Positions 4,256-18,440 of a stretch of 56,570 bases of DNA are shown in pieces (within the stretch, counting starts at the first letter, position 1; each line of letters opens with the position of its first letter). The position numbers were made by a program, and so were the translations under genes. This stretch comes from Patescibacteria group bacterium (GTDB lineage Bacteria; Patescibacteriota; Doudnabacteria; UBA920). The stretch spans positions 1 through 56,570 of the forward strand of contig WARV01000011.1 in assembly GCA_013387205.1 (NCBI GenBank). Direction: 5' to 3'. The notes beneath the pieces are model-generated. The model was not told the origin of the DNA and made no database searches. It saw nothing but the letters and a program-made list of their open reading frames with translations.

Positions 4256-4471
4256 ATGGATGATACAAAAACCTTTCAAAATATAGAAAAAAAACTTACT
4301 GCCATATTAGCTCTTTTAGTAGAGGAGCGAGAGCATAAGACTTACACCAAAGATCTCAATAAGATCGAAGTTGTTCTTAATAATTTAGGGTTCAGCAGCT
4401 CTGAAATCGCAAATATAATTCAAAAAAATCAAGTCGCAGTAATAAAATCCTTACAAAGGGCTAAAAAATAA
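4256..4471 (+). CDS. mini-HTH protein 1 of the array
   Basis: This 71-aa protein has an N-terminal amphipathic/hydrophobic helix (NIEKKLTAILALLVEE), a linker, and a C-terminal helix-turn-helix resembling sigma70 region 4 (LGFSSSEIANIIQ, then VAVIKSLQRAKK). It is the first gene after the promoter and is followed by the next after 4 bases. Four more proteins of the same plan are in this operon, so it belongs to a diverged tandem family. No Shine-Dalgarno is visible. The N-terminal helix suggests dimerisation, possibly between paralogues. Transcriptional or defence regulator is a guess. Confidence 0.75.
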   Translation: MDDTKTFQNIEKKLTAILALLVEEREHKTYTKDLNKIEVVLNNLGFSSSEIANIIQKNQVAVIKSLQRAKK

Positions 4472-4475
4472 CTCC

Positions 4476-4682
4476 ATGGAAAACAAATCAACCAATCAAG
4501 CCTTGCAAGAGTTAGTGATGCTTTTCACGATTATAGTGAAAAGAAGTGTGCCACAATCAACCCTCATTCAAGAAATGAATGCTGTGGGTTTTGAACCTAA
4601 AAGGATAGCCGAGCTATTGAGAACCACCCCTAATACTGTGAGTGTTGCAATCAATAGATTCAAAAAAATGAAAGGAAAATAA
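4476..4682 (+). CDS. mini-HTH protein 2 of the array
   Basis: This 68-aa protein has the same layout as its neighbour: N-terminal helix (ALQELVMLFTIIVKRS), then a region-4-like HTH, VGFEPKRIAELLRTTPNTVS, followed by a basic tail RFKKMKGK. The recognition helix TPNTVSVAINRF differs clearly from those of the other four, so each copy could recognise another sequence. It is separated from the flanking genes by 4 bases and 1 base and must be co-transcribed with them. Confidence 0.78.
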   Translation: MENKSTNQALQELVMLFTIIVKRSVPQSTLIQEMNAVGFEPKRIAELLRTTPNTVSVAINRFKKMKGK

Positions 4683-4683
4683 C

Positions 4684-4872
4684 ATGGGTAAAAATAGTCA
4701 AGAGAAACAAACACTTGATTGCAAATTAGACAAGATTATTAATTTACTACAATTACTTGTAGCAACTGAGCTTTATAGGGATGGTGTTGCAAAGTCCGAA
4801 ATTGGAAAGCAGCTCCATCTTGCAAAAGCATCAGTGGTAGCAATGCTGAAAGGCATTAAATTAAAGGAATAA
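4684..4872 (+). CDS. mini-HTH protein 3 of the array
   Basis: This 62-aa protein has an N-terminal helix DCKLDKIINLLQLLVATELY and an HTH (DGVAKSEIGKQLHLAKASVV, then AMLKGIK). It starts 1 base after the preceding stop, and the next gene starts 3 bases after its own stop. It is the shortest of the first four copies. The DxKLDKI.NLL N-terminus is similar to copies 1 and 4 (KKLxxLxAL), supporting common descent by tandem duplication. Confidence 0.75.
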   Translation: MGKNSQEKQTLDCKLDKIINLLQLLVATELYRDGVAKSEIGKQLHLAKASVVAMLKGIKLKE

Positions 4873-4875
4873 TTT

Positions 4876-5103
4876 ATGGATGATAAACTTGGGGAATCTA
4901 TAGCCAAAAAACTGAATGTTCTAATTGCTTTGACACTAAACAGGGCTCTAAACAGTTCGCCATTTCAACACAATAAAAAAGAAACTGGAGACAAAATAAG
5001 GTATTTGGCTAGTTTTGGATTAAACCCTAATGACATAGCAGAAATTACAGGCTCTCCAGTTCAAAGTGTTAGAACCCTATTGACGCCTTCAAGAAAAAAA
5101 TAG
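4876..5103 (+). CDS. mini-HTH protein 4 of the array
   Basis: This 75-aa protein has an N-terminal helix (ESIAKKLNVLIALTLNRAL), a longer polar linker, and an HTH, FGLNPNDIAEITGSPVQSVR, with tail TLLTPSRKK. It is the last mini-HTH before the AlbA_2 gene, 9 bases upstream of it. The layout (helix plus HTH) and operon position tie it to the other copies. DNA binding is inferred from the motif only. Confidence 0.75.
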   Translation: MDDKLGESIAKKLNVLIALTLNRALNSSPFQHNKKETGDKIRYLASFGLNPNDIAEITGSPVQSVRTLLTPSRKK

Positions 5104-5906: not shown

Positions 5907-6740
5907 ATGAACAATACAACACTTCACAATCTTTTTGAGCGTTTACGAGTAGAGTTGAGGATAACAAAGCCGAAAACCTTACGAAAAAAAATTCAAAGGG
6001 AAGCTTCAAAACTAGGTCTTACCACTGATGAAGCGCTGTTTATATTGGCGAAAGAAAATGGTATAGGTTATCAAAGAGAATTTAGAAAATTGAAGCCTGA
6101 ATCCAGACAGTCCATAACCGATGCTATTAGAGAATATAGTTCAAACAGTTCCAATATCACAAATACCGCAAAGGCAAAAGCACCTTCTTTTCGTGGGAAA
6201 AATAGAACAACTACGATCAAAACTAAATTTGGTAGTATCACAGAACCTTATCTTCCTCATACGATTAACCAAGAAGCAGTTGATATGGCTGAGCAAGCTT
6301 ATTTAAGTTTGTATATATTAGAAAATTCAGTAAGGAGTTTTGTTCTAACTGTAATGAAGAAGAATTACGGAGAAGATTGGTGGAAACATAAAATGGGAAC
6401 AAAAAAATTAAAAGATATTGCTGCCAAGGTTACTGACAGACAAAAAACAGAAGAAAAAAATCGATGGCATGGCAAAAGGGGTGCTCACCCAATCTACTAT
6501 AGTGATTTTGGCGACTTATCTGTAATTATAGAAACCTATTGTTCTAATTTCCGTCCTTACTTCTCAAATTTGAAATATAAAGAGTCTTCGTTATTGCTAA
6601 AGTTAGCAGAAATAGAACCTTCTAGAAATGTTACAGCTCATCACAATCCACTAAAAAATAACGACTTGAATAGGGTTCATGGCTACTTAATAGACTGGGT
6701 AAGCCAGTTAGAATATATAAAAGACAACTATATCTTATAA
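5907..6740 (+). CDS. Swt1-type HEPN domain protein (putative RNase effector)
   Basis: In this 277-aa protein the N-terminal third is basic with a helical bundle, and the C-terminal part (about 130-275) resembles the Swt1-like HEPN domain: AYLSLYILENSVRSFV, GEDWW, then the signature R240-N-V-T-A-H245 (RN-x3-H, here RNVTAHHN) that forms the RNase active site in HEPN toxins. The intact motif predicts metal-independent RNA cleavage. It starts 2 bases after the AlbA_2 gene. In a system with five mini-HTH proteins it is the obvious effector, with AlbA_2 or HTH proteins as sensors or controllers. ATG 5907 is the only start near the preceding stop. Confidence 0.8.
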   Translation: MNNTTLHNLFERLRVELRITKPKTLRKKIQREASKLGLTTDEALFILAKENGIGYQREFRKLKPESRQSITDAIREYSSNSSNITNTAKAKAPSFRGKNRTTTIKTKFGSITEPYLPHTINQEAVDMAEQAYLSLYILENSVRSFVLTVMKKNYGEDWWKHKMGTKKLKDIAAKVTDRQKTEEKNRWHGKRGAHPIYYSDFGDLSVIIETYCSNFRPYFSNLKYKESSLLLKLAEIEPSRNVTAHHNPLKNNDLNRVHGYLIDWVSQLEYIKDNYIL

Positions 6741-6756
6741 TTAATTAAAAATAGGC

Positions 6757-6930
6757 ATGGCTCAAAAGAAAAAGAATGTTCAGCTAGAGCCCCTTGAAGC
6801 TATAAAACGACTCATGATCTTGCAGTTATTAGCTCAAGGGGTGAAAACCGAATCCATTGCTGAGATGTTGCAAATCGACACCAGTACAATACGGCATATG
6901 GTTTCTGTAAGAGGTGTTAATTCTAAATAA
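6757..6930 (+). CDS. mini-HTH protein 5 of the array
   Basis: This 57-aa protein lies 16 bases after the HEPN gene. It has a basic start (MAQKKKNVQLEP), a hydrophobic helix (AIKRLMILQLLAQ) and a HTH (GVKTESIAEMLQIDTSTIRH), the same plan as the four copies at the front of the operon. Placing a fifth copy after the effector suggests the array is functional and not a remnant of duplication at one end. It is too short to be found by a 60-residue cutoff. A hairpin or T-rich run follows in the 6950-6975 stretch. Confidence 0.7.
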   Translation: MAQKKKNVQLEPLEAIKRLMILQLLAQGVKTESIAEMLQIDTSTIRHMVSVRGVNSK

Positions 6931-8737: not shown

Positions 8738-8755
8738 ATGGAGATGTGATATAAT
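8738..8755 (+). promoter_or_regulatory. extended -10 promoter upstream of structured RNA copy A
   Basis: TGTGATATAAT (-10 at 8750-8755) precedes the RNA by about 16 bases. The same box with flanking bases recurs before the paralogue at 11224-11229 and before RNA copy B at 17590-17595. Confidence 0.65.
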
Positions 8756-8761
8756 TAAATT

Positions 8762-8920
8762 ATAATTTAAGTGCCTAAACCCGAAGCTTCTTGGCTCGGG
8801 CATGGCATAAAAACCATTTGCACATAGAGACGGTCATCCGTCTTGTCTGACTGTGCAAATGGTTGTCGCTCGAAAGGGTGGCAGGTCCGCAAGGGCCAGG
8901 GCAAGCGGGTGGCCCTTTTT
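8762..8920 (+). ncRNA. structured RNA, copy A (unrecognised family), leader of the 659-aa surface protein
   Basis: Three stems can be drawn. P1: TGCC-TAAA-CCCG ... CGGG-CAT-GGCA, an inner helix closed by an outer GCC/GGC pair with a conserved TAAA/CAT internal loop. P2: ACCATTTGCACA ... TGTGCAAATGGT, capped by GACGG-TCAT-CCGTC. P3: GTCGCTC-GAAA-GGGTGGC with a GAAA tetraloop. A terminator-like GGGCC...GGCCC-TTTTT follows (8892-8920). Copies B and C keep the loops and change both sides of each stem. The coding gene starts 68 bases after the T run. It is either a riboswitch-like leader ending in a terminator or a small RNA. I do not recognise it as a named family. Confidence 0.85.
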
Positions 8921-8988
8921 GTATGCCACAAAAACTTGCCTGCCATAAACTGGCGTTAACGAAATAAAATTAATTTAAGAAATATAAT

Positions 8989-10968
8989 ATGCTAAGAAAC
9001 AAAAAATATTTTCTCTCTTTGTTTATAGCTGTTGTTTTAATAGCAACCAGCATTAGTACAGCTTACGCCTTGCCTTATGCTCCAGGAGAAACTTTGGATC
9101 CAACGTGTCATCCCGGCGATGCCAACTGTAATGTTATTATTCCATCCTTTACCGTTGGTGGTGATTTGTCCGGTACCAGTAAAGCCCAAACCGTTATTGG
9201 TCTGCAAGGTAATCCGGTCTCTTCTTCTACCCCTGCCTCCAACCAGGTCTTAGCCTGGAATGGTTCAGCCTGGGCTCCGGCTAACCCAGCTAGCGGCAGC
9301 CAGTGGAGTAACGTTTCAGGAGGAATTTCTTATAACTCTGGTAACGTGACGATCGACACTACGGTACTTCCGCATGGCGTTCCGGTGTCGGTTAAAGCCT
9401 CTCGGTTTGGCGCGGCGGGAGACGCACGGCAGGTCACAGACGGCGCGATTAACGTCGGCACGAACAATAAGCTACTCACCTCCGCAACGGCGGCGTTCGC
9501 GGCATCGGACATAGGCAAGACTATCGTGATTACCGGAGCGGGTGCGGCTGGTGCGAATCTGTCCACTACCATAACCTCTGTCATCAGTTCAACCAGTGTG
9601 ATGTTGACCGTCGCCGCGTCTATGACCGTGAGCGGCGCAACCGTGGTACTCGGCACTGATGACACCGCAGCCATTAATTCAGCCATCTCGTACTTGCAAA
9701 CCGTAAATCGCGGGTCGTTGTATTTCCCTTCCGGCCAATACCTCATCACAGGAGAGGGCTTAAATTTGGACCGTATACAATCGCAGGGTGTTCAGTTATC
9801 GGGAGACGGCCCTGGTCGTTCTGTTATATACGTCACCGGCAGCATCGGCCTTAATTTCCTGGGGACAAATGAGATGGCTGTGCGTGATCTTGGGATCGGG
9901 GGAGTCAATGCCGGGGTAGGTGTTCTGCTTGGCCGTTATACTGACGATCACACTAACGGGCAGGGCCGCTTTGAGAATGTGCATGTCAACGGTACGTTCA
10001 GGACAGCCGCTGTCTATAACATCTCCGCTGAAAGCGTGATCTGGTCGAATGTGTGGATTCAGAACTGGGCACCGGCCAGAGGCTTTTACACTAGCTCGAC
10101 GAACGACCTCAACGTTACACTTTCGCGGGGCACGATCGACACGGTTACTGATGTGCAGAACACGTTTATCGGGTCACACATCCAGACTTGTGCGATGGAT
10201 GCTGCCAGCACGGCAGTGGAGGTTCACGGGAACGTCTCCGTATTTGGCATGTTTAATAGCTATATCGGGACGAACGGAAAAGGCTTCTACCGGAGTGCAT
10301 CCGATACGAACGAGTATTCCGGAACTGTCAATATCATCGGCGGAGGAATTGAGAATTGTGTGGCGAACGGCGTTTCGACGGTGTATTGGCCAGTCTATTT
10401 CGATGGGGATAAATTCGATCACGTCACGATCCAAGGGTTGTCCATTTACCAGACCAGTATCAGCTCGCCGCATCCCGGAATCTATCAGGCAGATGGAGGA
10501 GAGATTGACGGCTCATCGTTCCTCAATATTTATACCGAAGGTACCGGAGGGGGTCCGAGTTTCTACAATCTCAGACATTCGACGGTACAGACTCTTTATC
10601 CGCTTGCCATTCGCCATGACGCCTACAACAACAACTTGAGCGCGTATTCGATCACGATTTCCGGAACGGACATTGGGTTCAACATCAAGAAGGCGTTTTC
10701 GCCGGGTTCGATGGCGATATCTGGCGCGGTGAACATCGACACCGTATCTGCGACAACGTTCATCGGCAAGCGCAGCGCGGGGACCCCCAATTACCCAGAC
10801 ATCTACGGAGGTGCAGTGGGAATTTGTCTAGCCAACGCCGCAACCCATGAGACTCAAATCTGCCTACAGCAAGGGAAGCTTATTATGACGGGTATTCCGA
10901 CCTCTTCTGCTGGCTTGACCAGCGGAATGGTGTGGAACAATGGCGGCGTATTGACCGTGGTTCCATAG
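8989..10968 (+). CDS. secreted surface protein with conserved N-terminal module and pectate-lyase-like beta-helix
   Basis: This 659-aa protein has a signal peptide at 1-27 (ends TAYA). Next comes the module shared with the next two genes (about 28-120): PYAPGETLDPTCHPGDANCN, then GGDLSGT..QTVIGLQGNP, ASNQVLAWNGSAWAPANPAS and a QW..ISYNSGNVTI strand. From about 125 on it reads like a right-handed beta-helix of the pectate-lyase-3/tailspike type (FGAAGD at the start, DDTAAINSAISYL, GSLYFPSGQYLI). Such folds bind or cut polysaccharides; no catalytic residues can be assigned by eye. The leader contains structured RNA copy A. The start ATG 8989 has no Shine-Dalgarno, as in the paralogues. Confidence 0.82.
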   Translation: MLRNKKYFLSLFIAVVLIATSISTAYALPYAPGETLDPTCHPGDANCNVIIPSFTVGGDLSGTSKAQTVIGLQGNPVSSSTPASNQVLAWNGSAWAPANPASGSQWSNVSGGISYNSGNVTIDTTVLPHGVPVSVKASRFGAAGDARQVTDGAINVGTNNKLLTSATAAFAASDIGKTIVITGAGAAGANLSTTITSVISSTSVMLTVAASMTVSGATVVLGTDDTAAINSAISYLQTVNRGSLYFPSGQYLITGEGLNLDRIQSQGVQLSGDGPGRSVIYVTGSIGLNFLGTNEMAVRDLGIGGVNAGVGVLLGRYTDDHTNGQGRFENVHVNGTFRTAAVYNISAESVIWSNVWIQNWAPARGFYTSSTNDLNVTLSRGTIDTVTDVQNTFIGSHIQTCAMDAASTAVEVHGNVSVFGMFNSYIGTNGKGFYRSASDTNEYSGTVNIIGGGIENCVANGVSTVYWPVYFDGDKFDHVTIQGLSIYQTSISSPHPGIYQADGGEIDGSSFLNIYTEGTGGGPSFYNLRHSTVQTLYPLAIRHDAYNNNLSAYSITISGTDIGFNIKKAFSPGSMAISGAVNIDTVSATTFIGKRSAGTPNYPDIYGGAVGICLANAATHETQICLQQGKLIMTGIPTSSAGLTSGMVWNNGGVLTVVP

Positions 10969-11217
10969 GTACCGTAGTTATGTTATTACAACACCAACCC
11001 CAAACATAATTCCCAAACCAAAACTATGTTAGTTCGAGGGTTTCCCTCGTTGTAGCAAGAATGTGAGAATGTTAACGTAAAAATTAACGGCTAAAACGCC
11101 CAATTTCTGGGATTTAGCCGTTTATTTTTTGATTATTCCAATCGTTTCTGGTTGTTTTTGAATTTAGCACCTTGGTTGTCTAATTAAAAACTAGCTTGCT
11201 GTTTCTATTCTATGCAG
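10969..11217. other. intergenic: duplicated 3' flank, REP-like hairpin and terminator
   Basis: Bases 10969-11027 resemble the flank after the third paralogue (14674-14727): both read TAACGTAG/TACCGTAG, then TGTTATT.CAACAC.AACCC and end AAAACTATG. There follow a short CGAGGGTTTCCCTCG hairpin (11035-11049) related to the REP hairpins near 16.8 kb, and a terminator-like stem AACGGCTAAA...TTTAGCCGTT with a T run (11089-11135). No gene is present. Confidence 0.6.
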
Positions 11218-11229
11218 GTGTGATATAAT
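11218..11229 (+). promoter_or_regulatory. extended -10 promoter of the SGNH surface-protein gene
   Basis: GGTGTGATATAAT (-10 at 11224-11229) and the bases after it match the promoter of copy A at 8738-8770. The structured RNA that follows there is absent here. Confidence 0.6.
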
Positions 11230-11289
11230 TTAATTACAATTTATGTACCAGTGTTCATGAAATAAAATTAGTTTAATGAATACAATATA

Positions 11290-12996
11290 ATGAGAAACAA
11301 AAAATACCTTCTCTCCTTACTTGCAGCTACCGTTTTGATGGTAATTAGCTTTGGCACAGCTCATGCCTTGCCCTATGCTCCAGGAGAAACTTTAGATCCT
11401 ACCTGTCATCCTGGAGATAGTAACTGCAATGTTATTATTCCATCCTTTACTCCTGGCGGGGATTTGTCTGGCACCAGCACATCTCAAACTGTCATTGGCT
11501 TGCAGGGAAACCCTATCTCTACCACTACTCCCACTTCAAATCAAATCCTTCAATGGAATGGTTCGGCTTGGGCCCCAGCAACTTCCACCAGTAGCCAGTG
11601 GACTACTAGTGGCAATGATATCTCTTACAATTTGGGGAACGTTAATGTCTGCAATACGATATCTAGCACGCCAGGCTACTTATGGTCTAATGCTAACCAG
11701 TGTGTAGAGGGGACAGTTGATAACGGCATTACTCGCGTATTCAAGACGCGCCCTGCCGCTGAGTCTAAACGCATTGTGATTATAGGGTCGTCCACTGCTG
11801 CCGGTACCGGAGCAAGCGATTATGCACATTCTTGGGCAGGGTTATTCACTGCGGCAATGACCGCGAAGGGTTATACAGTTTTTAATGTTTCAATTCCAGG
11901 CGACTGGTCTGGACAGCAGCATGACCGATTTTATAAAGACGTGGCCCCGCTCCTGCCGGATTTTGTGATTGACGCTCAATCCTTGCTTAACGATAATTTT
12001 TTTATTTCTAATGCCAGCGGAGGATACGACACGCACACAGCAGCTGTTCGCGCGTTTATCAAGATGGTCGAGGGTATTGGGGCTATTCCGGTGGTGATTG
12101 GCCAGTATCCAAATAATAATTTTACCGCAGAACATGTTTCTTATATAAAATCGCTCTATCAGGAATGGGAAAAGCTTGGGGTGCAAACCTGGGACTTTTG
12201 GGGTAATACCGCTGATGCGAACGGACACTATATTAATGGATTGACCGTTGATGGTGCTCATCCAACCAATGCAGGCCATCAAGCAATGTTTGATGCTATT
12301 CCACTTACGTATTTCGATGCTGCGTATACCAAGCACTCTAGTGAAACCCCTCTTGGGGCGGGCGTGTGGGTGGTGAACGGATCTGCCTTGCGGCCCATTG
12401 AAGTTGATTTGCCGTCTCCGGCTAGCTCGTGGAGTTACGCGTACTGGGCTCGAAACACTCTGGGAGGCACTAACCTTGCATGGAGCGGTATTACGCAAAA
12501 TCTTGTAAGAGTCAAGAATTCAGGGACCTCACCGAACAATTATTGGGCACTCTCTGATAATGTTGGAGATGCTGTACTTTCAACAGTTAATGGCGCAGAT
12601 AATACGTGGCATCATATTGCCGTAACATATAAAGCTCCAACCAACACGTTAACATTTTATGTGGACGGGGTTTCTATCGGAACTACTACAAGAGATACTT
12701 TAAGTAATCAAAGCCGCTTCGCCTTCGGTGGCAGAGATGATACGGCATTGAATGCTAATGGCGGACAATTAGCGCACATCGCGGTTTACCGAAGCTGTTT
12801 AGAGCCTGACGATATCGTGTCTCTCGCCAGTGGAAATATTGTTCGTAAGAGTTTGGAGGCATATCTGCCGCTTTCAACTGCTCCTGCCCCGGCTGCCTAT
12901 GTATTAAATATGGCTGATACTACCACCCGAGCCAAAGTCAATGGCAGCGTTACATCTGTCATTGTAAAAGCGGGAAGTACAATCTTGGCGCCGTAA
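11290..12996 (+). CDS. secreted surface protein: shared N-terminal module, SGNH hydrolase and LamG-like domain
   Basis: This 568-aa protein has a signal peptide at 1-26 (ends TAHA). The shared module runs to about 120, nearly identical to its neighbours. An SGNH/GDSL hydrolase domain (about 150-340) has VIIGSSTAAGTG (block I Ser) and DGAHPTNAGH (block V Asp-x-x-His), so it is likely an active esterase, for example acting on acetylated polysaccharide. A LamG/concanavalin-like domain follows (about 375-500) with WHHIAVTYKAPTNTLTFYVD. The gene continues the paralogue series and is transcribed in the same direction. The ATG has no Shine-Dalgarno. Confidence 0.85.
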   Translation: MRNKKYLLSLLAATVLMVISFGTAHALPYAPGETLDPTCHPGDSNCNVIIPSFTPGGDLSGTSTSQTVIGLQGNPISTTTPTSNQILQWNGSAWAPATSTSSQWTTSGNDISYNLGNVNVCNTISSTPGYLWSNANQCVEGTVDNGITRVFKTRPAAESKRIVIIGSSTAAGTGASDYAHSWAGLFTAAMTAKGYTVFNVSIPGDWSGQQHDRFYKDVAPLLPDFVIDAQSLLNDNFFISNASGGYDTHTAAVRAFIKMVEGIGAIPVVIGQYPNNNFTAEHVSYIKSLYQEWEKLGVQTWDFWGNTADANGHYINGLTVDGAHPTNAGHQAMFDAIPLTYFDAAYTKHSSETPLGAGVWVVNGSALRPIEVDLPSPASSWSYAYWARNTLGGTNLAWSGITQNLVRVKNSGTSPNNYWALSDNVGDAVLSTVNGADNTWHHIAVTYKAPTNTLTFYVDGVSIGTTTRDTLSNQSRFAFGGRDDTALNANGGQLAHIAVYRSCLEPDDIVSLASGNIVRKSLEAYLPLSTAPAPAAYVLNMADTTTRAKVNGSVTSVIVKAGSTILAP

Positions 12997-13071
12997 TCGT
13001 ATGGTATACTGTGTTATTTACCTAATGATCGAAATAACATGAAAGCAAAATAATTTAAACAATATCATATA

Positions 13072-14673
13072 ATGAAAAACAAAAAACACTTTTTCTCCTT
13101 GTTTGTAGCTGTTGTTTTGATGGCAACCAGCGTTAGTACAGCTTACGCCGTGCCTTATGCTCCGGGAGAAACTTTGGATCCTGCCTGTCATCCCGGTGAT
13201 GCTAACTGTAATGTTATTATCCCTTCTTTTACTGCTGGCGGAGATCTTGCAGGGACTAGCACTAATCAAACCGTCATTGGCTTGCAGGGGAACCCTGTCT
13301 CTTCCACTACCCCTGCCTCCAACCAGGTCCTGTCCTGGAACGGCTCGGCCTGGGCTCCGGCTAACCCGGCTAGTGGTAGTCAGTGGGCGACTTCTGGAAA
13401 TGATATTTCCTATAACTCGGGGAATGTAACGGTGGGGACTACGTTACAAGTCGATGGCCAGCTAACCAAGTCGGTGTGGCGGAAGTACGGTCAGGTGTTT
13501 GCATCTGCCGCTGAGCCGAGTGTGCTGTACGAGCAAAATGCACGTCTACTCGCTGTACCGGTCGCAACCAGTGTATTTAAGGCGTGGTACGACTGCACCC
13601 TCGGAACCTGCTACGCCGAAAGTCTGACTGCGCTGCCGGGAAGTTGGACAGTACAATCAACCCCGGCCCTTACTGGGTATCAACGCACGGTGGTGCGTCA
13701 TTACGGTTCACTGTATTACTTTTTCGGGTGTCGCATAGGAGATATGGGACACATCGACGTTTTCACGTCTGCTGATGGCACACGTTTCACACTGGCGCAA
13801 GCAAACATTATCACCACAGGTACTGCCGGCGCGTGGGACAGTCTTCAAATTTCGACTGGCACCGTTGATTACGATGGGACTACGTGGCGGACGCTGTATC
13901 AGGGAAAACCTGCGGGCGGTGTGTGGCAAATGGGGCTTGCCACTGCTACTTCGGCGACGGGACCATGGACGAAGTACGCTAGCAATCCCGTGTTCAAGAC
14001 TTCTGACGGTCCAGGTGGAATGGTCGGCGGTGGAACATCTCATTACAAGGATTTATCCGGCAATATCTGGATTTGGCCGCACTCATCTACGATAGGCGAT
14101 CTGCCCACCGACATTTACCGTTACACCTCAACCGACTGGATCCATTGGACCCGCAACCCGTTGCGGCCTGTGCTACAGCGCAGCGCAATTATTGAGGGCG
14201 CTGGATTATCGCAGGGCCAAGTAGCTGACTCGTCGTTGGTGGAAGCTAACGGCAAAACGTACATGTTCCACTCGACCATTCAAAACCAATCATCAGGTCC
14301 GTTTGGCGTCTCATTGGAGATAGCGCCCATGCCATTGGCACAGCTTGTGACCACTGACGAGGGTAGTCATGCTTACGTGGCTCCTGAGCAGGGTGTATCC
14401 AATTTGGGGATCGTTCCGCAATACGTCATTACGTCTGATGGATCGTTGCAGGATAAGAGTTTCCTAGTGCTTCGTCAGGGTACTTTCAATGTCGATGGGA
14501 ATAGTTTGGTGGTTTTCGGCGGTGCGGCGGTGTCCACTTCTGGGTACACTTGCACAGGCAGTTCCAATGGACCGACCAACGGCTCAATCCGGGTGAGGTA
14601 CGACGGACTAGATCGGTTGACGGTGTTCGGACCGCCCAACGAGGCATACTCGCTCTTGTGTTTCGCACGGTAA
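13072..14673 (+). CDS. secreted surface protein: shared N-terminal module and GH43/GH32-like beta-propeller
   Basis: This 533-aa protein has a signal peptide at 1-27 (ends TAYA), then the shared module to about 120 (VPYAPGETLDPACHPGDANC). The rest (about 130-500) has repeats typical of five-bladed glycosidase propellers: TVVRHYGSLYYFFG, DVFTSADGTRF, GTWRTLYQG-like strand pairs, SATGPWTKYASNPVF and STDWIHWTRNP. GH43/GH32-like sugar hydrolase or binding is likely, but I cannot place the catalytic acids. It is the third member of the module series, and its 3' flank is homologous to that of the first. The start lacks a Shine-Dalgarno. Confidence 0.78.
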   Translation: MKNKKHFFSLFVAVVLMATSVSTAYAVPYAPGETLDPACHPGDANCNVIIPSFTAGGDLAGTSTNQTVIGLQGNPVSSTTPASNQVLSWNGSAWAPANPASGSQWATSGNDISYNSGNVTVGTTLQVDGQLTKSVWRKYGQVFASAAEPSVLYEQNARLLAVPVATSVFKAWYDCTLGTCYAESLTALPGSWTVQSTPALTGYQRTVVRHYGSLYYFFGCRIGDMGHIDVFTSADGTRFTLAQANIITTGTAGAWDSLQISTGTVDYDGTTWRTLYQGKPAGGVWQMGLATATSATGPWTKYASNPVFKTSDGPGGMVGGGTSHYKDLSGNIWIWPHSSTIGDLPTDIYRYTSTDWIHWTRNPLRPVLQRSAIIEGAGLSQGQVADSSLVEANGKTYMFHSTIQNQSSGPFGVSLEIAPMPLAQLVTTDEGSHAYVAPEQGVSNLGIVPQYVITSDGSLQDKSFLVLRQGTFNVDGNSLVVFGGAAVSTSGYTCTGSSNGPTNGSIRVRYDGLDRLTVFGPPNEAYSLLCFAR

Positions 14674-14726
14674 CGTAGTCATGTTATTCCAACACTAACC
14701 CAAAATATAATTCTCAAACTAAAACT

Positions 14727-15917
14727 ATGATAAAATCACTTCGTTTAAAAATATTCATCAGCCTGGCGATTATTGCCCTAACCCCGCTTTCTGCTTTTGC
14801 CTCCACTGGCACTATTGACTCTACTAACAAGTACGCCTGGGGAGAGAAGTTGGGCTGGGTGAATTTTAACCCGACTAATGGTAGTGTCCAGGTTACGGAT
14901 AGCGGGATAACAGGTAACATTTGGAGCGCTAATTACGGCTGGATTAACTTAAGTCCAGCTAATGGCGGGGTGAAGAATGACGGGCATGGTAATCTCTCTG
15001 ACATGGCCTGGGGCAGTAATATTGGCTGGGTTGATTTTAGCGGAGTCAAAATTAACAGCAATGGCGTATTTAGTGGTACGTCTACGACTGATTCTTTAGG
15101 TAGCTTGACCTTTGATTGCGCTAACTGTAAGGTGTCTACTTCCTGGCGGCCCACTGTAGCTAGTTCTGGTGGGGGAGTAGTATACCCATCCATTTACCAG
15201 GTTACAGTTGCTACTACTACGGCCACTTCTGCTTTAATTACCTGGAGGACAGACTACAACACCACAGCTACAGTGGTTTATGGTACTTCCACTGCCTACG
15301 GTTTGTCTAAAGTTGACCAGACCGCTGCTACTACTCATTCTCTACTTATAGACAACCTTACCCCTGCCGCTTCCTACCAGTTCCGGGTCAAAGCTGTTTT
15401 AAACGGTATCACCACCACTTCCAGCAACTATGCCTTTACCACGTTGGCTAATCCTGTTGTTAGCATCACACCAACGGTTACTCCTGTTTCTACCCCGACT
15501 ACAACAGAAAATCAGCAGGCTAACAACAATTTGTCTTATCCCTCCGGTACTTTAGTTTCAGATAGAGGTGCGATTTATTTGATTATTGGCCAAACCAAAC
15601 TGGGCTTTGCCTCTATGAAAGCCTTTACAGGTTTGGGTTATTCGTTAAAGAACGTGGTTAAAGGCAATGCTTCTGCTTACAGTTTGTCCAAAACCATACT
15701 AAAATCTGCCACCCAGGCACATCCGGACGGCTCCTGGATTATTTCCGGCAAGGTGGTATTTTACGTTTCTGCTTCCGGATATATTCCCGTGCCTTCCTGG
15801 GACATATTTCTCTCTAACGGCGGCAAGGCCCAATACATTGTCAAAGCCAACCGCGCTGACCTTAAAGACAAACGGCCGATTGCTTCTCCAATGACTGCTA
15901 ATGATAACAGGCTGTAA
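14727..15917 (+). CDS. secreted YAWGE-repeat/fibronectin-III protein with conserved C-terminal module
   Basis: This 396-aa protein has a signal peptide at 1-25 (ends AFAS). Next come three repeats of the type KYAWGEKLGWVNF / SANYGWINLSPANGG / MAWGSNIGWVDFSGV (about 32-115), then a fibronectin type III domain (about 155-240, YQVTVATTTATSALITW to YAFTT), a Thr/Pro-rich linker, and a C-terminal module (about 275-396). The last is shared with the 693-aa protein at 27298: GAIYLI..TKLGFASMKAF.GLGY, HPDGSWI, IPVPSWDIFLSNGG, ending NRL. The C-terminal module is probably for surface attachment. It lies 53 bases after the propeller gene. Confidence 0.82.
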   Translation: MIKSLRLKIFISLAIIALTPLSAFASTGTIDSTNKYAWGEKLGWVNFNPTNGSVQVTDSGITGNIWSANYGWINLSPANGGVKNDGHGNLSDMAWGSNIGWVDFSGVKINSNGVFSGTSTTDSLGSLTFDCANCKVSTSWRPTVASSGGGVVYPSIYQVTVATTTATSALITWRTDYNTTATVVYGTSTAYGLSKVDQTAATTHSLLIDNLTPAASYQFRVKAVLNGITTTSSNYAFTTLANPVVSITPTVTPVSTPTTTENQQANNNLSYPSGTLVSDRGAIYLIIGQTKLGFASMKAFTGLGYSLKNVVKGNASAYSLSKTILKSATQAHPDGSWIISGKVVFYVSASGYIPVPSWDIFLSNGGKAQYIVKANRADLKDKRPIASPMTANDNRL

Positions 15918-15932
15918 TAGTAAATAATAAAG

Positions 15933-16177
15933 AAGTGGTCTCAAAACTTCATTTTGACTGCAATTTTATTATTTCGGGGTTAAGCTGGCAACTGGCAGAG
16001 CCAGATTGCCATTAAAGCTCCATTCGGCCATAAAAATTTCTCCGCTTAGCCTCCGTTCAGTCTCCTCATGGGGCTGAGCCCCATGAGGCATGATTACGGC
16101 TAAACATCGAAATTTATTAAGTCCGACTGTCTCGAAATTCTAAACTTTCGACTTAAAAGCAAGTTTTGAGACCACTT
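15933..16177. repeat. 245-bp inverted-repeat element, GGTCTC family (long form)
   Basis: A perfect 17-bp outer stem, AAGTGGTCTCAAAACTT/AAGTTTTGAGACCACTT, encloses conserved inner ends (CATTTTGACTGCAATT; GACTTAAAAGC). The middle carries a second perfect hairpin CCTCATGGGG/CCCCATGAGG (16055-16089). No ORF is present. It could be a MITE or a structured RNA. Confidence 0.7.
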
Positions 16178-16185
16178 CAAAGTAA

Positions 16186-16218
16186 AAACCGCCCCTCGAC
16201 AAGTGAGGGGCGGTTTTT
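16186..16218 (+). terminator. terminator-like hairpin
   Basis: The stem AAAAACCGCCCCTC/GAGGGGCGGTTTTT lies next to the inverted-repeat element. It is symmetrical and could serve either strand. Confidence 0.7.
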
Positions 16219-16330
16219 GGTATAGCTATCCACAGCCAAGCGCTTGCATAAAAGTATTTGTAGTTCTATAATTATTTTAAAGGGTGAACGATTGTATACT
16301 ATTTTGTATTTGAACTAATGACTATAAATT

Positions 16331-16846
16331 ATGTATACGGCACTTCAAAATTTATGTCCTTGCGCCGTTATGGAGCGTTCGGTTCCGTATCGTTGTTATT
16401 CCGCGCTCCGCATTATTTGCGATGCCTGTTGTCGCGTACCTGAAGAAAGGCAACACATTTTGCCGCATAAGGCGCGGGGCAAGGCGGCCTGCGGATACAT
16501 AATGCTGGATAATAGCGACTCTCTGGTAGAGCAAAAGGCAAAGTATTTGGGGGAGTGCACGGTTGACCAGGCTGAATACCAAGCGATAATTTTTGCGCTC
16601 GACCGCGCTGCGGCTTTTTGCCGGGAGAAAATCGTAATTTGGCTAGATAGCGAAGTGATTGCCGGGCAGCTAAGCGGATGGTATTGCCTGCGCTCCGAAC
16701 TAATAAAGCCCTTATTCGATGAAGTCAAGAAGCTTGAACTGCGCTACAAGTCCGTAACTTACTTCCACCATAGCCGCGGCAGCTTCTGGGCCAGGGCCGC
16801 GGACAAGCTTGCCAACGAAGAATACAGCCGTCTGCAAAAAGGATAA
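16331..16846 (+). CDS. RNase H-like protein (RNase HI family, divergent N-terminus)
   Basis: This 171-aa protein has the RNase HI core with RGKAACGYIMLD, the Glu in QAEYQAIIFALDRA, the Asp in IWLDSEVIAGQLSG, and ARAADKLANEEY at the end. These are the strands and acids that make the two-metal site cutting RNA in RNA-DNA hybrids. The first Asp is probably in ICDACCR, where the family normally has D-G-A-C-R-G-N-P-G. About 18 unusual residues then separate it from RGKAACGY, so activity may be reduced or the N-terminus may be rearranged. The true start is uncertain: the ATG codons at residue 1 and residue 14 have no Shine-Dalgarno. A REP hairpin starts right after the stop. Confidence 0.7.
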   Translation: MYTALQNLCPCAVMERSVPYRCYSALRIICDACCRVPEERQHILPHKARGKAACGYIMLDNSDSLVEQKAKYLGECTVDQAEYQAIIFALDRAAAFCREKIVIWLDSEVIAGQLSGWYCLRSELIKPLFDEVKKLELRYKSVTYFHHSRGSFWARAADKLANEEYSRLQKG

Positions 16847-16848
16847 GT

Positions 16849-16883
16849 ACGAGGGTTCCCCTCGGGCCGAGGGGAACCCTCGT
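16849..16883. repeat. REP-like hairpin 1 (ACGAGGG...CCCTCGT)
   Basis: ACGAGGGTTCCCCTCG and CGAGGGGAACCCTCGT form a near-perfect hairpin. It begins two bases after a TAA stop in the same way as copy 3 at 18391, and lies just before the RAYT-type transposase gene. Confidence 0.75.
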
Positions 16884-16905
16884 TAGTCCGTAACATGATA
16901 CAAAA

Positions 16906-17526
16906 ATGAAAAATCGCGATTATAAAATATTCCGCAAGGGTGAATATTACCACATATTCAACCGAGGTAATAACAAAGACCCAATATTCTTAGACGACCA
17001 GGATTATTTGAATTATTTAAAAAGGATTAAGCTGGTTTTAAATATCGGCTCTTTAAGCGGCAAGCCTGCGGCCTCGGTCACCCGAATACGTCCGTTACCG
17101 AACGATGCTTTTTCTATTGTTTCTTACATACTGGTTCCAAACCATTTCCATTTCATTATAAAGCAGAATACAGATTTAGGAATTGATAAATTTATGCTTA
17201 AGCTTACTACCAGCTATGCCTCGTACTTTAATAAAAAGTACAATCATATTGGAAACGTATTTCAAGATGCATTTAAAGCCAAGTTAATAAATAACGACTC
17301 CTATTTATTGTCTCTTACCGCGTATGTTCATAATAATGTTAGTAATCCTATGGAATATCCGTATTCTAGCTTTTTAGATATAATTGACAAGCGGAATGGA
17401 GAAGTTTGTAAAAAAGACATTATTTTAAAGTGGTTTGATGGAGACCCGGAAAAATATAAAAATTTTGTTTTGAATTTTGCTGACAAAGATTCGCAAAACA
17501 TCCAGCACTTGATATTGGAAGATTGA
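16906..17526 (+). CDS. REP-associated tyrosine transposase (RAYT, Y1_Tnp/IS200-like)
   Basis: This 206-aa protein has the HUH motif PNHFHFII (about residue 81-88) that binds the metal ion, and a C-terminal helix YVHNNVSNPMEYPYSS that carries the catalytic Tyr, as in single-Tyr HUH transposases. It begins YYHIFNRGNNKDPIFLDDQD, the typical RAYT opening. Such enzymes bind and cut REP hairpins and are usually single-copy and domesticated. Palindromes with the same arms lie on both sides (16849-16883, 17543-17559) and once more at 18391. There is a short extra segment (LSGKPAASVTRIRPLPN) that may be an insertion. Confidence 0.88.
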   Translation: MKNRDYKIFRKGEYYHIFNRGNNKDPIFLDDQDYLNYLKRIKLVLNIGSLSGKPAASVTRIRPLPNDAFSIVSYILVPNHFHFIIKQNTDLGIDKFMLKLTTSYASYFNKKYNHIGNVFQDAFKAKLINNDSYLLSLTAYVHNNVSNPMEYPYSSFLDIIDKRNGEVCKKDIILKWFDGDPEKYKNFVLNFADKDSQNIQHLILED

Positions 17527-17542
17527 CCAACGGGGCTGGTTA

Positions 17543-17559
17543 ACGAGGGGAACCCTCGT
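17543..17559. repeat. REP-like hairpin 2
   Basis: ACGAGGG-GAA-CCCTCGT is a minimal version of the repeat on the other side of the RAYT-type gene. Confidence 0.65.
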
Positions 17560-17589
17560 TCCTCGCTACAACGAAAAACTAAAACATGA

Positions 17590-17595
17590 TATAAT
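17590..17595 (+). promoter_or_regulatory. -10 box upstream of structured RNA copy B
   Basis: CATGATATAAT ends 16 bases before the conserved TGCCTAAACC, the same spacing as in copy A. No good -35 is visible. Confidence 0.55.
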
Positions 17596-17601
17596 TCCAA
17601 T

Positions 17602-17772
17602 ACAATTGAATTGCCTAAACCTTGGCTTTTAACGAAACCAAGGCATGGCTCAAAAACCATACCTACACAGAGACGGTCATCCGTCTTGCTTCCTGTAGGT
17701 ATGGTCATCGCTCGAAAGGGTGATGGGGTGGGTGCGTAAGTGCCCATCCGGCAAGCGCGGGTGGCCCTTTTT
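17602..17772 (+). ncRNA. structured RNA, copy B, leader of the 57-aa protein gene
   Basis: It has the same three stems as copy A with changed but paired bases. P1 is TGCC-TAAA-CCTTGG ... CCAAGG-CAT-GGC. P2 is ACCATACCTACA ... TGTAGGTATGGT with inner GACGG-TCAT-CCGTC. P3 is ATCGCTC-GAAA-GGGTGAT. A further stem (GATGGGGTGGGTGC...GTGCCCATC) and a GGTGGCCCTTTTTGTATG tail follow. The ATG of the 57-aa gene is 26 bases after the T run. Confidence 0.85.
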
Positions 17773-17798
17773 GTATGCAAAAATAACTACACAAAATT

Positions 17799-17972
17799 AT
17801 GCCTAAATTTAAAATTGACTTCTGGTTTGATCAGGAGCCTAGAAAGCTGCGCTTAGGAGTAGTTGTTGTTCAGGCTAAAACCGAAGAAGAAGCCTACAGG
17901 CTGGCATGGCAGAGAACAGAGCTGTGGCCGATCGGCGAAGTCAAAAAAGGGAGGTCGAAGCTAAGGCGATGA
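17799..17972 (+). CDS. 57-aa conserved small protein, paralogue 1
   Basis: The N-terminal 45 residues (MPKFKIDFWFDQEPRKLRLG, then VVVVQAKTEEEAYRLAW) are very close to the 77-aa protein at 18155, so this is a tandem duplicate with its own RNA leader. The pattern suggests a small alpha-beta fold: strand KIDFWFDQ, strand LGVVVVQAKT, helix EEEAYRLAW. The tail is short and basic (KKGRSKLRR). I do not recognise the family. No Shine-Dalgarno is present before ATG. It is too short for common ORF cutoffs. Confidence 0.75.
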   Translation: MPKFKIDFWFDQEPRKLRLGVVVVQAKTEEEAYRLAWQRTELWPIGEVKKGRSKLRR

Positions 17973-17987
17973 TCATAAAATCAAAAT

Positions 17988-18128
17988 TGCCTAAACCCGT
18001 GGGCTAAGCTCCGGGCATGGCGCTAAAACCAACATAGATAAAGAACCCTCATCGGGGTTCTATGTTGGTCGTATGGGGAAACCCATGCGTTCGGCCCGAA
18101 AGGGTCGAGCTCCCGATGGGGGCTTTTT
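17988..18128 (+). ncRNA. structured RNA, copy C, leader of the 77-aa protein gene
   Basis: P1 is TTGCC-TAAA-CCCG ... CGGG-CAT-GGC. P2 is ACCAACATA ... TATGTTGGT with inner AACCC-TCAT-(C)GGGGTT. P3 is TTCGGCCC-GAAA-GGGTCGAG. An extra stem ATGGG-GAAA-CCCAT sits between P2 and P3 in this copy. The terminator AGCTCCC-GAT-GGGGGCT-TTTT ends it. It begins 15 bases after the stop of the previous paralogue. The conserved single-stranded TAAA, CAT, TCAT and GAAA match copies A and B. Confidence 0.85.
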
Positions 18129-18154
18129 GTATCTAAATAATTAATAAGGATACT

Positions 18155-18388
18155 ATGCCGAAGTACAAAATCGATATCTGGTTCGACCAAAAACCAAAAA
18201 AGCTGCGCTTGGGATCGGTGGTCGTGGAAGCAGAAACCGAAGAAGAAGCGTATAAGACTGCGTGGCATAAAACTGAGCATTGGATGCTGGGAAAGGTTAA
18301 AGAACCTGCCCAAATCCGGAGCGATCAAGTCAAACGTGATATGGCCGCGCGGGCGGCAAAGGACGGAAAATTTAGACTGCCCAGATAA
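18155..18388 (+). CDS. 77-aa conserved small protein, paralogue 2
   Basis: It has the same N-terminal domain as the 57-aa protein (MPKYKIDIWFDQKPKKLRLG, VVVEAETEEEAYKTAW) plus a longer charged tail (residues 50-77, with KRDMAARAAKDGKFRLPR). It could be a small intracellular regulator; there is no signal or membrane segment. Copy C of the structured RNA precedes it by 26 bases, so the RNA-ORF unit was duplicated as a block. A REP-like hairpin begins right after its stop. The family is not recognised. Confidence 0.75.
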   Translation: MPKYKIDIWFDQKPKKLRLGSVVVEAETEEEAYKTAWHKTEHWMLGKVKEPAQIRSDQVKRDMAARAAKDGKFRLPR

Positions 18389-18390
18389 GT

Positions 18391-18440
18391 ACGAGGGTTC
18401 CCCTCGGCTAAATTTGCTAAGCCCCGAGGGGAACCCTCGT
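18391..18440. repeat. REP-like hairpin 3
   Basis: ACGAGGGTTCCCCTCGG and CCGAGGGGAACCCTCGT form arms around a 16-nt middle. The bases ATAAGT-ACGAGGG at the stop codon are identical to those at 16843-16855. Confidence 0.75.

Follow-up and report, generated by a model that had tools for sequence, protein, structure and literature searches.

Three LOOT leaders in a Patescibacteria contig

A 56,570-nucleotide (nt) stretch of DNA from a Patescibacteria group bacterium (contig WARV01000011.1; hereafter the window) carries, between positions 8762 and 18128, three RNA leaders, which are the feature under study here and which are members of LOOT (RF03000), an orphan structured RNA catalogued by covariation. 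Taking the evidence as a whole, LOOT is likely best explained as a cis-acting, riboswitch-like leader with alternative pairings, and not as a free small RNA (sRNA). Three complementarities, which we call b:b', b':c and a':a'', exist, are conserved and covary in the family; "riboswitch" refers to a way in which such a leader may work, proposed from sequence comparison, and the copies themselves are filed under RF03000.

All three copies were assigned to RF03000 by cmscan (79.1, 73.5 and 79.1 bits for copies 1, 2 and 3, with a gathering score of 46.4), the matches span them end to end (Rfam E-values 2.7e-13 to 5.5e-12), and in the cmscan alignments they have the four-helix LOOT consensus with its conserved CCUAA/AUGG and GAAA. 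The structure is real and the family has a name, and the RF03000 matches of all three copies rule out an unnamed RNA family, which is how a first-pass annotation had described them. That annotation had correctly placed the copies (cores at 8772-8897, 17612-17748 and 17988-18107, all on the + strand), listed the words that the cmscan alignment recovers in the same order (TGCC-TAAA, CAT-GGC, AAAACC, TCAT and GAAA) and described the stems P1, P2 and P3, whose sequences differ between aligned copies while their pairing is kept. Its observations that the same promoter, TGATATAAT, stands ahead of copies 1 and 2, and that a gene follows each copy closely, also stood, with start codons about 65, 26 and 26 bases past the T-run in copies 1, 2 and 3. 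A TATAAT hexamer near copy 1 was found by a promoter scan, and copy 3, which is without a clear promoter, begins 16 bases after the stop codon of the open reading frame (ORF) of copy 2.

In what follows, a and a' are the lower strands of P2, b is the P2 apex, b' is the element 3' of P4 with the T-run, c is the segment past the T-run and a'' is the segment before the AUG. The features of the three copies, with protein lengths in amino acids (aa), are:

8747..8755, + strand: extended -10 promoter TGATATAAT of copy 1, from the sequence; TATAAT nearby, and a family-wide -10-like element 6-7 nt before ACAAYT
8772..8897, + strand: LOOT RNA core, copy 1 (RF03000, 79.1 bits)
8774..8779, + strand: 5' half of the 11-nt-receptor-like loop, CCTAAA, copy 1
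8801..8805, + strand: receptor 3' half, CATGG, copy 1
8824..8848, + strand: b segment (P2 apex), copy 1, whose partner is itself or the 3' element
8872..8875, + strand: P3 GAAA tetraloop, copy 1
8898..8923, + strand: 3' element b' with T-run, copy 1, complementary to b and outside the Rfam model (duplex -30.0 kcal/mol)
8989..10968, + strand: first downstream ORF of copy 1, pectin-lyase-like "moron" protein with signal peptide (PHROG 32881, 2.3e-26)
17587..17595, + strand: extended -10 promoter TGATATAAT of copy 2, from the sequence
17612..17748, + strand: LOOT RNA core, copy 2 (RF03000, 73.5 bits)
17614..17619, + strand: receptor 5' half, CCTAAA, copy 2
17644..17648, + strand: receptor 3' half, CATGG, copy 2
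17667..17691, + strand: b segment (P2 apex), copy 2
17714..17717, + strand: P3 GAAA tetraloop, copy 2
17750..17775, + strand: 3' element b' with T-run, copy 2 (duplex with b -32.0 kcal/mol)
17799..17972, + strand: downstream ORF of copy 2, small protein of 57 aa (no Pfam/PHROG match)
17988..18107, + strand: LOOT RNA core, copy 3 (RF03000, 79.1 bits)
17990..17995, + strand: receptor 5' half, CCTAAA, copy 3
18016..18020, + strand: receptor 3' half, CATGG, copy 3
18038..18060, + strand: b segment (P2 apex), copy 3
18078..18081, + strand: P3 GAAA tetraloop, copy 3
18107..18131, + strand: 3' element b' with T-run, copy 3, doubling as a simple terminator-like hairpin (duplex with b -32.6 kcal/mol; terminator scan)
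18155..18388, + strand: downstream ORF of copy 3, 77 aa, paralogue of the 57 aa protein (67% identity)

Conserved alternative pairings

We gathered about 120 LOOT regions with flanks of up to 5 kilobases (kb), built a covariance model from 16 copies and collected 130 copies. Covariation was judged by partner swaps, slid controls and shuffles; common ancestry among copies may inflate shuffle-based counts, and the slid and within-subtype controls guard against this inflation. The b' element (for example GGCGGCGGGCUUU, GGGUGGCCCUUUUU and GGGAGACCUUUUUU) is absent from the Rfam model, which ends after P4. With its own b it forms a duplex of -28.3 kcal/mol, compared with -19.1 when partners were swapped between copies (standard deviation 0.36; 0/10,000), -15.7 for dinucleotide shuffles and -13 to -14 for other flanking stretches, and the difference holds within subtype a (-27.8 vs -19.8 swapped, 0/10,000) and within subtype b, which includes window copies 1 and 2 (-29.8 vs -22.2 swapped, 0/10,000). 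When 73 copies were aligned with MAFFT on sequence alone, pairing was seen in 91.6% of the b:b' cells, falling to 42-56% with the partner slid by 1-3 columns, and cells with both sides changed numbered 125 against 1-16 in the slid controls, with single pairs using up to six pair types. The complementarity covers about 20 nt and reaches into the T-run, and in the window copies the P2 apex is a better partner for the 3' element (-30.0, -32.0 and -32.6 kcal/mol) than the element's own simple hairpin.

G-U makes up 19% of b:b' pairs and 5% of those in the P2 apical hairpin. Such richness would be expected if the strands, b' included, must also pair with another partner, and it suggests that selection acts on the RNA and not on the DNA, which disfavours a DNA-level inverted repeat such as a recombination site.

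The same segments have other conserved partners. In 123 of 126 copies the b segment folds on itself at a lower energy than its shuffles (-6.0 vs -2.5 overall), b' pairs with its own c at -12.96 against -9.93 swapped (0/5,000), and the 3' strand of P2, a', pairs with its own downstream region at -11.14 against -8.78 swapped (0/5,000), while the 5' strand, a, tried against the same region, gave nothing (-7.34 own vs -7.28). About 30 copies carry an exact repeat of 9-13 bases of the P2 5' strand, usually 1-7 bases before an ATG, as in CCGATCAAG at the C20 copy of the source genome. Mutually exclusive, conserved complementarities tied to the T-run or to the ribosome binding region are thus present, as complementarity rather than as solution structure. 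A CaCoFold analysis reported 28 "cross-covariations" for LOOT (PMC7657543), which the b, b', c and a'' pairings may explain.

A GAAA tetraloop and a receptor-like loop in the core

The asymmetric internal loop of P1 reads CCTAAA..CATGG in 75 of the 130 copies and CCTAAC..TATGG in 31, and the P3 loop is GAAA in 128. This is more conservation than stability needs, as seen from P4, where the loop varies (GAAA 42, other GNRA 50, UUCG 9, other 29). CCUAAG/UAUGG is the 11-nt receptor for GAAA, known from Tetrahymena P4-P6, RNase P type B and group I/II introns, and LOOT resembles this pair of motifs in its P1 CCUAA-N / N-AUGG loop and invariant P3 GAAA. The variants found in LOOT are CCUAAA/CAUGG, CCUAAC/UAUGG and CCUAAC/CAUGG, and the two sides of the replaced receptor pair are strongly associated (Fisher 3e-19). 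CCUAAC_CAUGG has been studied as a GAAA receptor, in a set picked for a wild-type-like thermodynamic fingerprint (PMC11381326). The P1 variant receptor probably docks the P3 GAAA loop, which would give a compact, aptamer-like core.

Both the pairings and the core bear on a rather unlikely alternative, namely that LOOT does no switching and is a constitutive component of a phage "moron" unit: a 5' leader, insulating or stabilising, which has a pseudoknotted terminator and reduces cargo expression. A promoter of its own, a leader, a T-run and a single cargo gene do make up a moron layout, and b:b', taken in isolation, is more stable than the hairpin with which it competes; however, three pairings that exclude one another each show conservation beyond what shuffles or swaps give, and an insulator alone leaves the receptor/tetraloop core and the P2 copy at the start codon unexplained.

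LOOT is positioned as a cis leader

The nearest downstream gene lies on the strand of LOOT in 118 of 127 copies (binomial 2e-25; 100/103 within 200 nt), compared with 57 of 128 for the nearest upstream gene, and because of this asymmetry we take LOOT to be a cis leader. The word ACAAYT was found ahead of P1 in 88 of 128 copies against an expected 7.7, often at a distance of 6-7 nt from a preceding -10-like hexamer, so transcription probably starts just before P1.

Rfam types LOOT as "Gene; sRNA", and the copies show a promoter-like element of their own, mostly a codirectional downstream gene and, in part of them, start-region complementarity. It could be argued that LOOT is a trans-acting or housekeeping-type sRNA, in which b' and the T-run make up a 3' end held in the P2 apex by a pseudoknot, with the following gene a mere neighbour. 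The Rfam type, the promoter-like element and the T-runs of at least 5 bases in 56 of 126 copies fit such an RNA, but the strand bias of the downstream genes disfavours a free sRNA, the P2 3' strand is complementary to the start region of its own gene, the complementary bases run on beyond the T-run, and the downstream genes are of one character (73% membrane/secreted), all of which make it unlikely. The first-pass annotation had left the choice between a riboswitch-like leader and a small RNA, and it is the leader half that is better supported, by the same-strand downstream gene and the covarying alternative pairings.

Cargo genes and mobile DNA

A hydrophobic membrane or signal-like segment was found in 73 of 100 first downstream ORFs, compared with 20% of other nearby ORFs, a background that takes in spurious ORFs. 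Pfam/PHROG matches downstream include zinc-ribbon/SHOCT membrane proteins, SNase nucleases, methylases, proteases and superinfection-exclusion-like proteins, and proteins upstream match PHROGs of integrases, primases, helicases, ParB and terminase. A serine recombinase cluster occurs at 60 of 130 LOOT loci, mostly upstream and on the opposite strand, and a large serine recombinase (PF07508) lies within 10 kb of 49 of 69 LOOTs in 40 genomes, where 4.4 were expected. Membrane-type cargo and closeness to recombinases together suggest that LOOT mostly leads the cargo of prophages or integrative elements. This recalls phage morons and lysogenic conversion genes, which LOOT loci resemble in having a promoter and a single gene near an integrase and in their membrane, superinfection-exclusion-like, nuclease and methylase products, and from which they differ in that the cargo is led by a large conserved RNA.

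In the window, the gene of copy 1 matches a moron-class PHROG (pectin lyase). Behind copies 2 and 3 lie the genes of two small paralogous proteins, relatives of which sit behind LOOTs in another genus of the host's family. This protein family of 51-77 aa, with the pattern M-P-K-[FY]-K-I-D-x-WFDQ-P-K-L, is found behind LOOT in two genera (L060, L061 and window 17799-18388), and neither window member has a Pfam or PHROG match.

The prophage setting, 5' position and compact fold would also suit a put- or EAR-like antitermination RNA of a phage, which would modify RNA polymerase for read-through of cargo operons. This is very unlikely given that the cargo is usually one gene close by and that the start-codon-region complementarity points to translation. 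An RNA antitoxin of a type III toxin-antitoxin pair would likewise be a pseudoknot-forming RNA with a T-run directly 5' of a gene, the toxin, on mobile DNA, and is extremely improbable since the downstream families are many and unrelated (zinc-ribbon/SHOCT membrane proteins, nucleases, methylases, proteases), the most frequent Pfam/PADLOC matches of 94 downstream proteins include no ToxN-like family, and LOOT is a single RNA without tandem repeats.

A possible two-state mechanism

We propose that LOOT, transcribed from a promoter of its own, would stand ahead of a single cargo gene; the product would usually be a membrane or secreted protein encoded by a prophage or integrative element. The b segment would form its own hairpin or pair with b', b' would alternatively pair with c, and in about a quarter of copies a' would leave P2 and cover a'' just before the AUG. 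Because b:b and b:b', b':b and b':c, and a':a and a':a'' are exclusive of each other, the simplest reading is a two-state leader. In the putative ON state P2 would be closed with its apical hairpin, b' would pair with c and the start region would be free, and in the putative OFF state b:b' would form directly before and into the T-run and a' would be free to cover the start region, resulting in termination at the T-run and/or blocked translation. The choice of state would depend on a signal bound by the docked core.

LOOT is similar to riboswitches and attenuators in its leader position, compact core and exclusive helices that reach the T-run or the ribosome binding region. It differs from them in that its targets are mobile-element cargo and not metabolism genes, in that it has no known ligand, and in that the competing helix starts from a hairpin apex, hence a pseudoknot. 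We tentatively hypothesise, as something that could be the case and falls short of being probable, that LOOT is a class of signal-responsive switches, largely of Patescibacteria, by which mobile elements regulate the surface, superinfection-exclusion-like and nuclease proteins that they carry as cargo, combining a P4-P6-like docked core with multi-strand exchange that can end in a translation block through a P2 copy at the start codon.

Several observations weigh against the proposed two-state leader of mobile-element cargo. T-runs measure 3-4 bases in 70 of the 126 copies and 5-6 in 56, so termination cannot be universal; some copies probably act through termination and others through translation. 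The full 20-base-pair b:b' helix is geometrically incompatible with a closed P2, so either P2 opens or fewer pairs form. In LOOT, where the docking of P3 into P1 is putative, the canonical G-U of the 11-nt receptor is replaced by A-C (85 of 130), C-U (32) or C-C (8). The start-codon copy a'' is found in about a quarter of copies only; the three window copies have a weak one or none, and they have no recombinase or structural phage genes nearby, the window contig being without a recombinase.

The terminator of the first-pass annotation holds in part, as a clear simple hairpin in copy 3, with weak hairpins in copies 1 and 2. Across the family, where short T-runs are common and pairing runs past the T-run, a simple GC hairpin is clear in some copies alone, and was rejected as the general ending of LOOT.

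Distribution and genomic neighbourhood

The source genome has five LOOT copies, the three in the window and two more (C24 and C20). LOOT was found in 15 of 22 genomes of the host's family and in 83 of 380 sampled genomes of the phylum, with one to seven copies each, and 14 control genomes had none. When GTDB contigs were scanned for the 3' element, 42 matched, and 14 of these have LOOT beside the match. Twelve are labelled as lineages of Patescibacteria (Uhrbacteria, Andersenbacteria, Gribaldobacteria, Saccharibacteria and others), another is an unlabelled "bacterium", and the last comes from a bin labelled Neomarinimicrobiota, outside Patescibacteria (L235), and is possibly mis-binned. Two IMG/VR viral sequences bear LOOT: a scan for the pattern TGCCTAAAC..GGCATGGC gave 49 contigs, with LOOT solely in L109/L119 (one sequence) and L121 and the remainder being chance or coding matches, and IMG/VR scans with the 3' element gave no additional viral copies. 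Copy 3 had no blastn match in named phage and plasmid collections.

Two contigs showed repeated LOOT sequence. The Uhrbacteria contig L254 has three weak LOOT-like matches (888-990, 1786-1888 and 2684-2778) spaced exactly 898 bases apart and followed downstream by a full LOOT, possibly a tandem repeat of a decayed element; this spacing is beyond the 500-base period limit of the tandem-repeat finder. The 3658-base contig L218 (G116:C25) has the same LOOT sequence at both ends, as do other contigs of that genome, and these ends are probably assembly breaks at identical LOOT copies.

Behind copy 1, at 8989-14673, stand three tandem secreted proteins with a common N-terminal region (ALPYAPGETLDPTCHPGD..NCNVIIPSF), whose C-terminal domains differ (one pectin-lyase-like, one GDSL esterase plus lectin, one unknown) and which by their domain make-up are modular surface proteins behind one LOOT. 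Immediately upstream of copy 2 is a Y1_Tnp (IS200-like, RAYT-like) transposase ORF (16906-17526), with REP-like palindromes (acgaggg..ccctcgt) nearby at about 17545-17560 and 18392-18440. Elsewhere in the window, at 5907-6930, a Swt1-like HEPN protein is adjoined by an HTH_23 protein, and ahead of this pair four short HTH-like ORFs (about 4256-5100) form a repeated small-protein cluster.

Implications for the LOOT family

LOOT was displayed as an example in Rfam 14 (PMC7779021), and Rfam 15 added two covarying pairs to it (PMC11701678). The literature naming LOOT, as covered here without the original family description, gave no function for it, nor the 3' element, the b:b' pairing, the start-codon copy, the 11-nt receptor or the link to prophage cargo; relative to that literature, the cis leader in place of an sRNA, the mobile-element cargo, the 11-nt receptor and the unmodelled 3' pairing partner are new here. 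The window copies share the P1-P4 layout and conserved loops of RF03000, and differ from the family as typed (sRNA) and modelled (to the end of P4) in having a 3' element that can pair with the P2 apex.

Patescibacteria are very small bacteria, and to our knowledge next to nothing is known of their phage biology. If our reading of LOOT is true, the family would have to be re-typed from sRNA to cis-regulatory leader, its Rfam model would gain about 25 nt at the 3' end, and the hunt for a ligand or protein partner would start from the prophage cargo of Patescibacteria.

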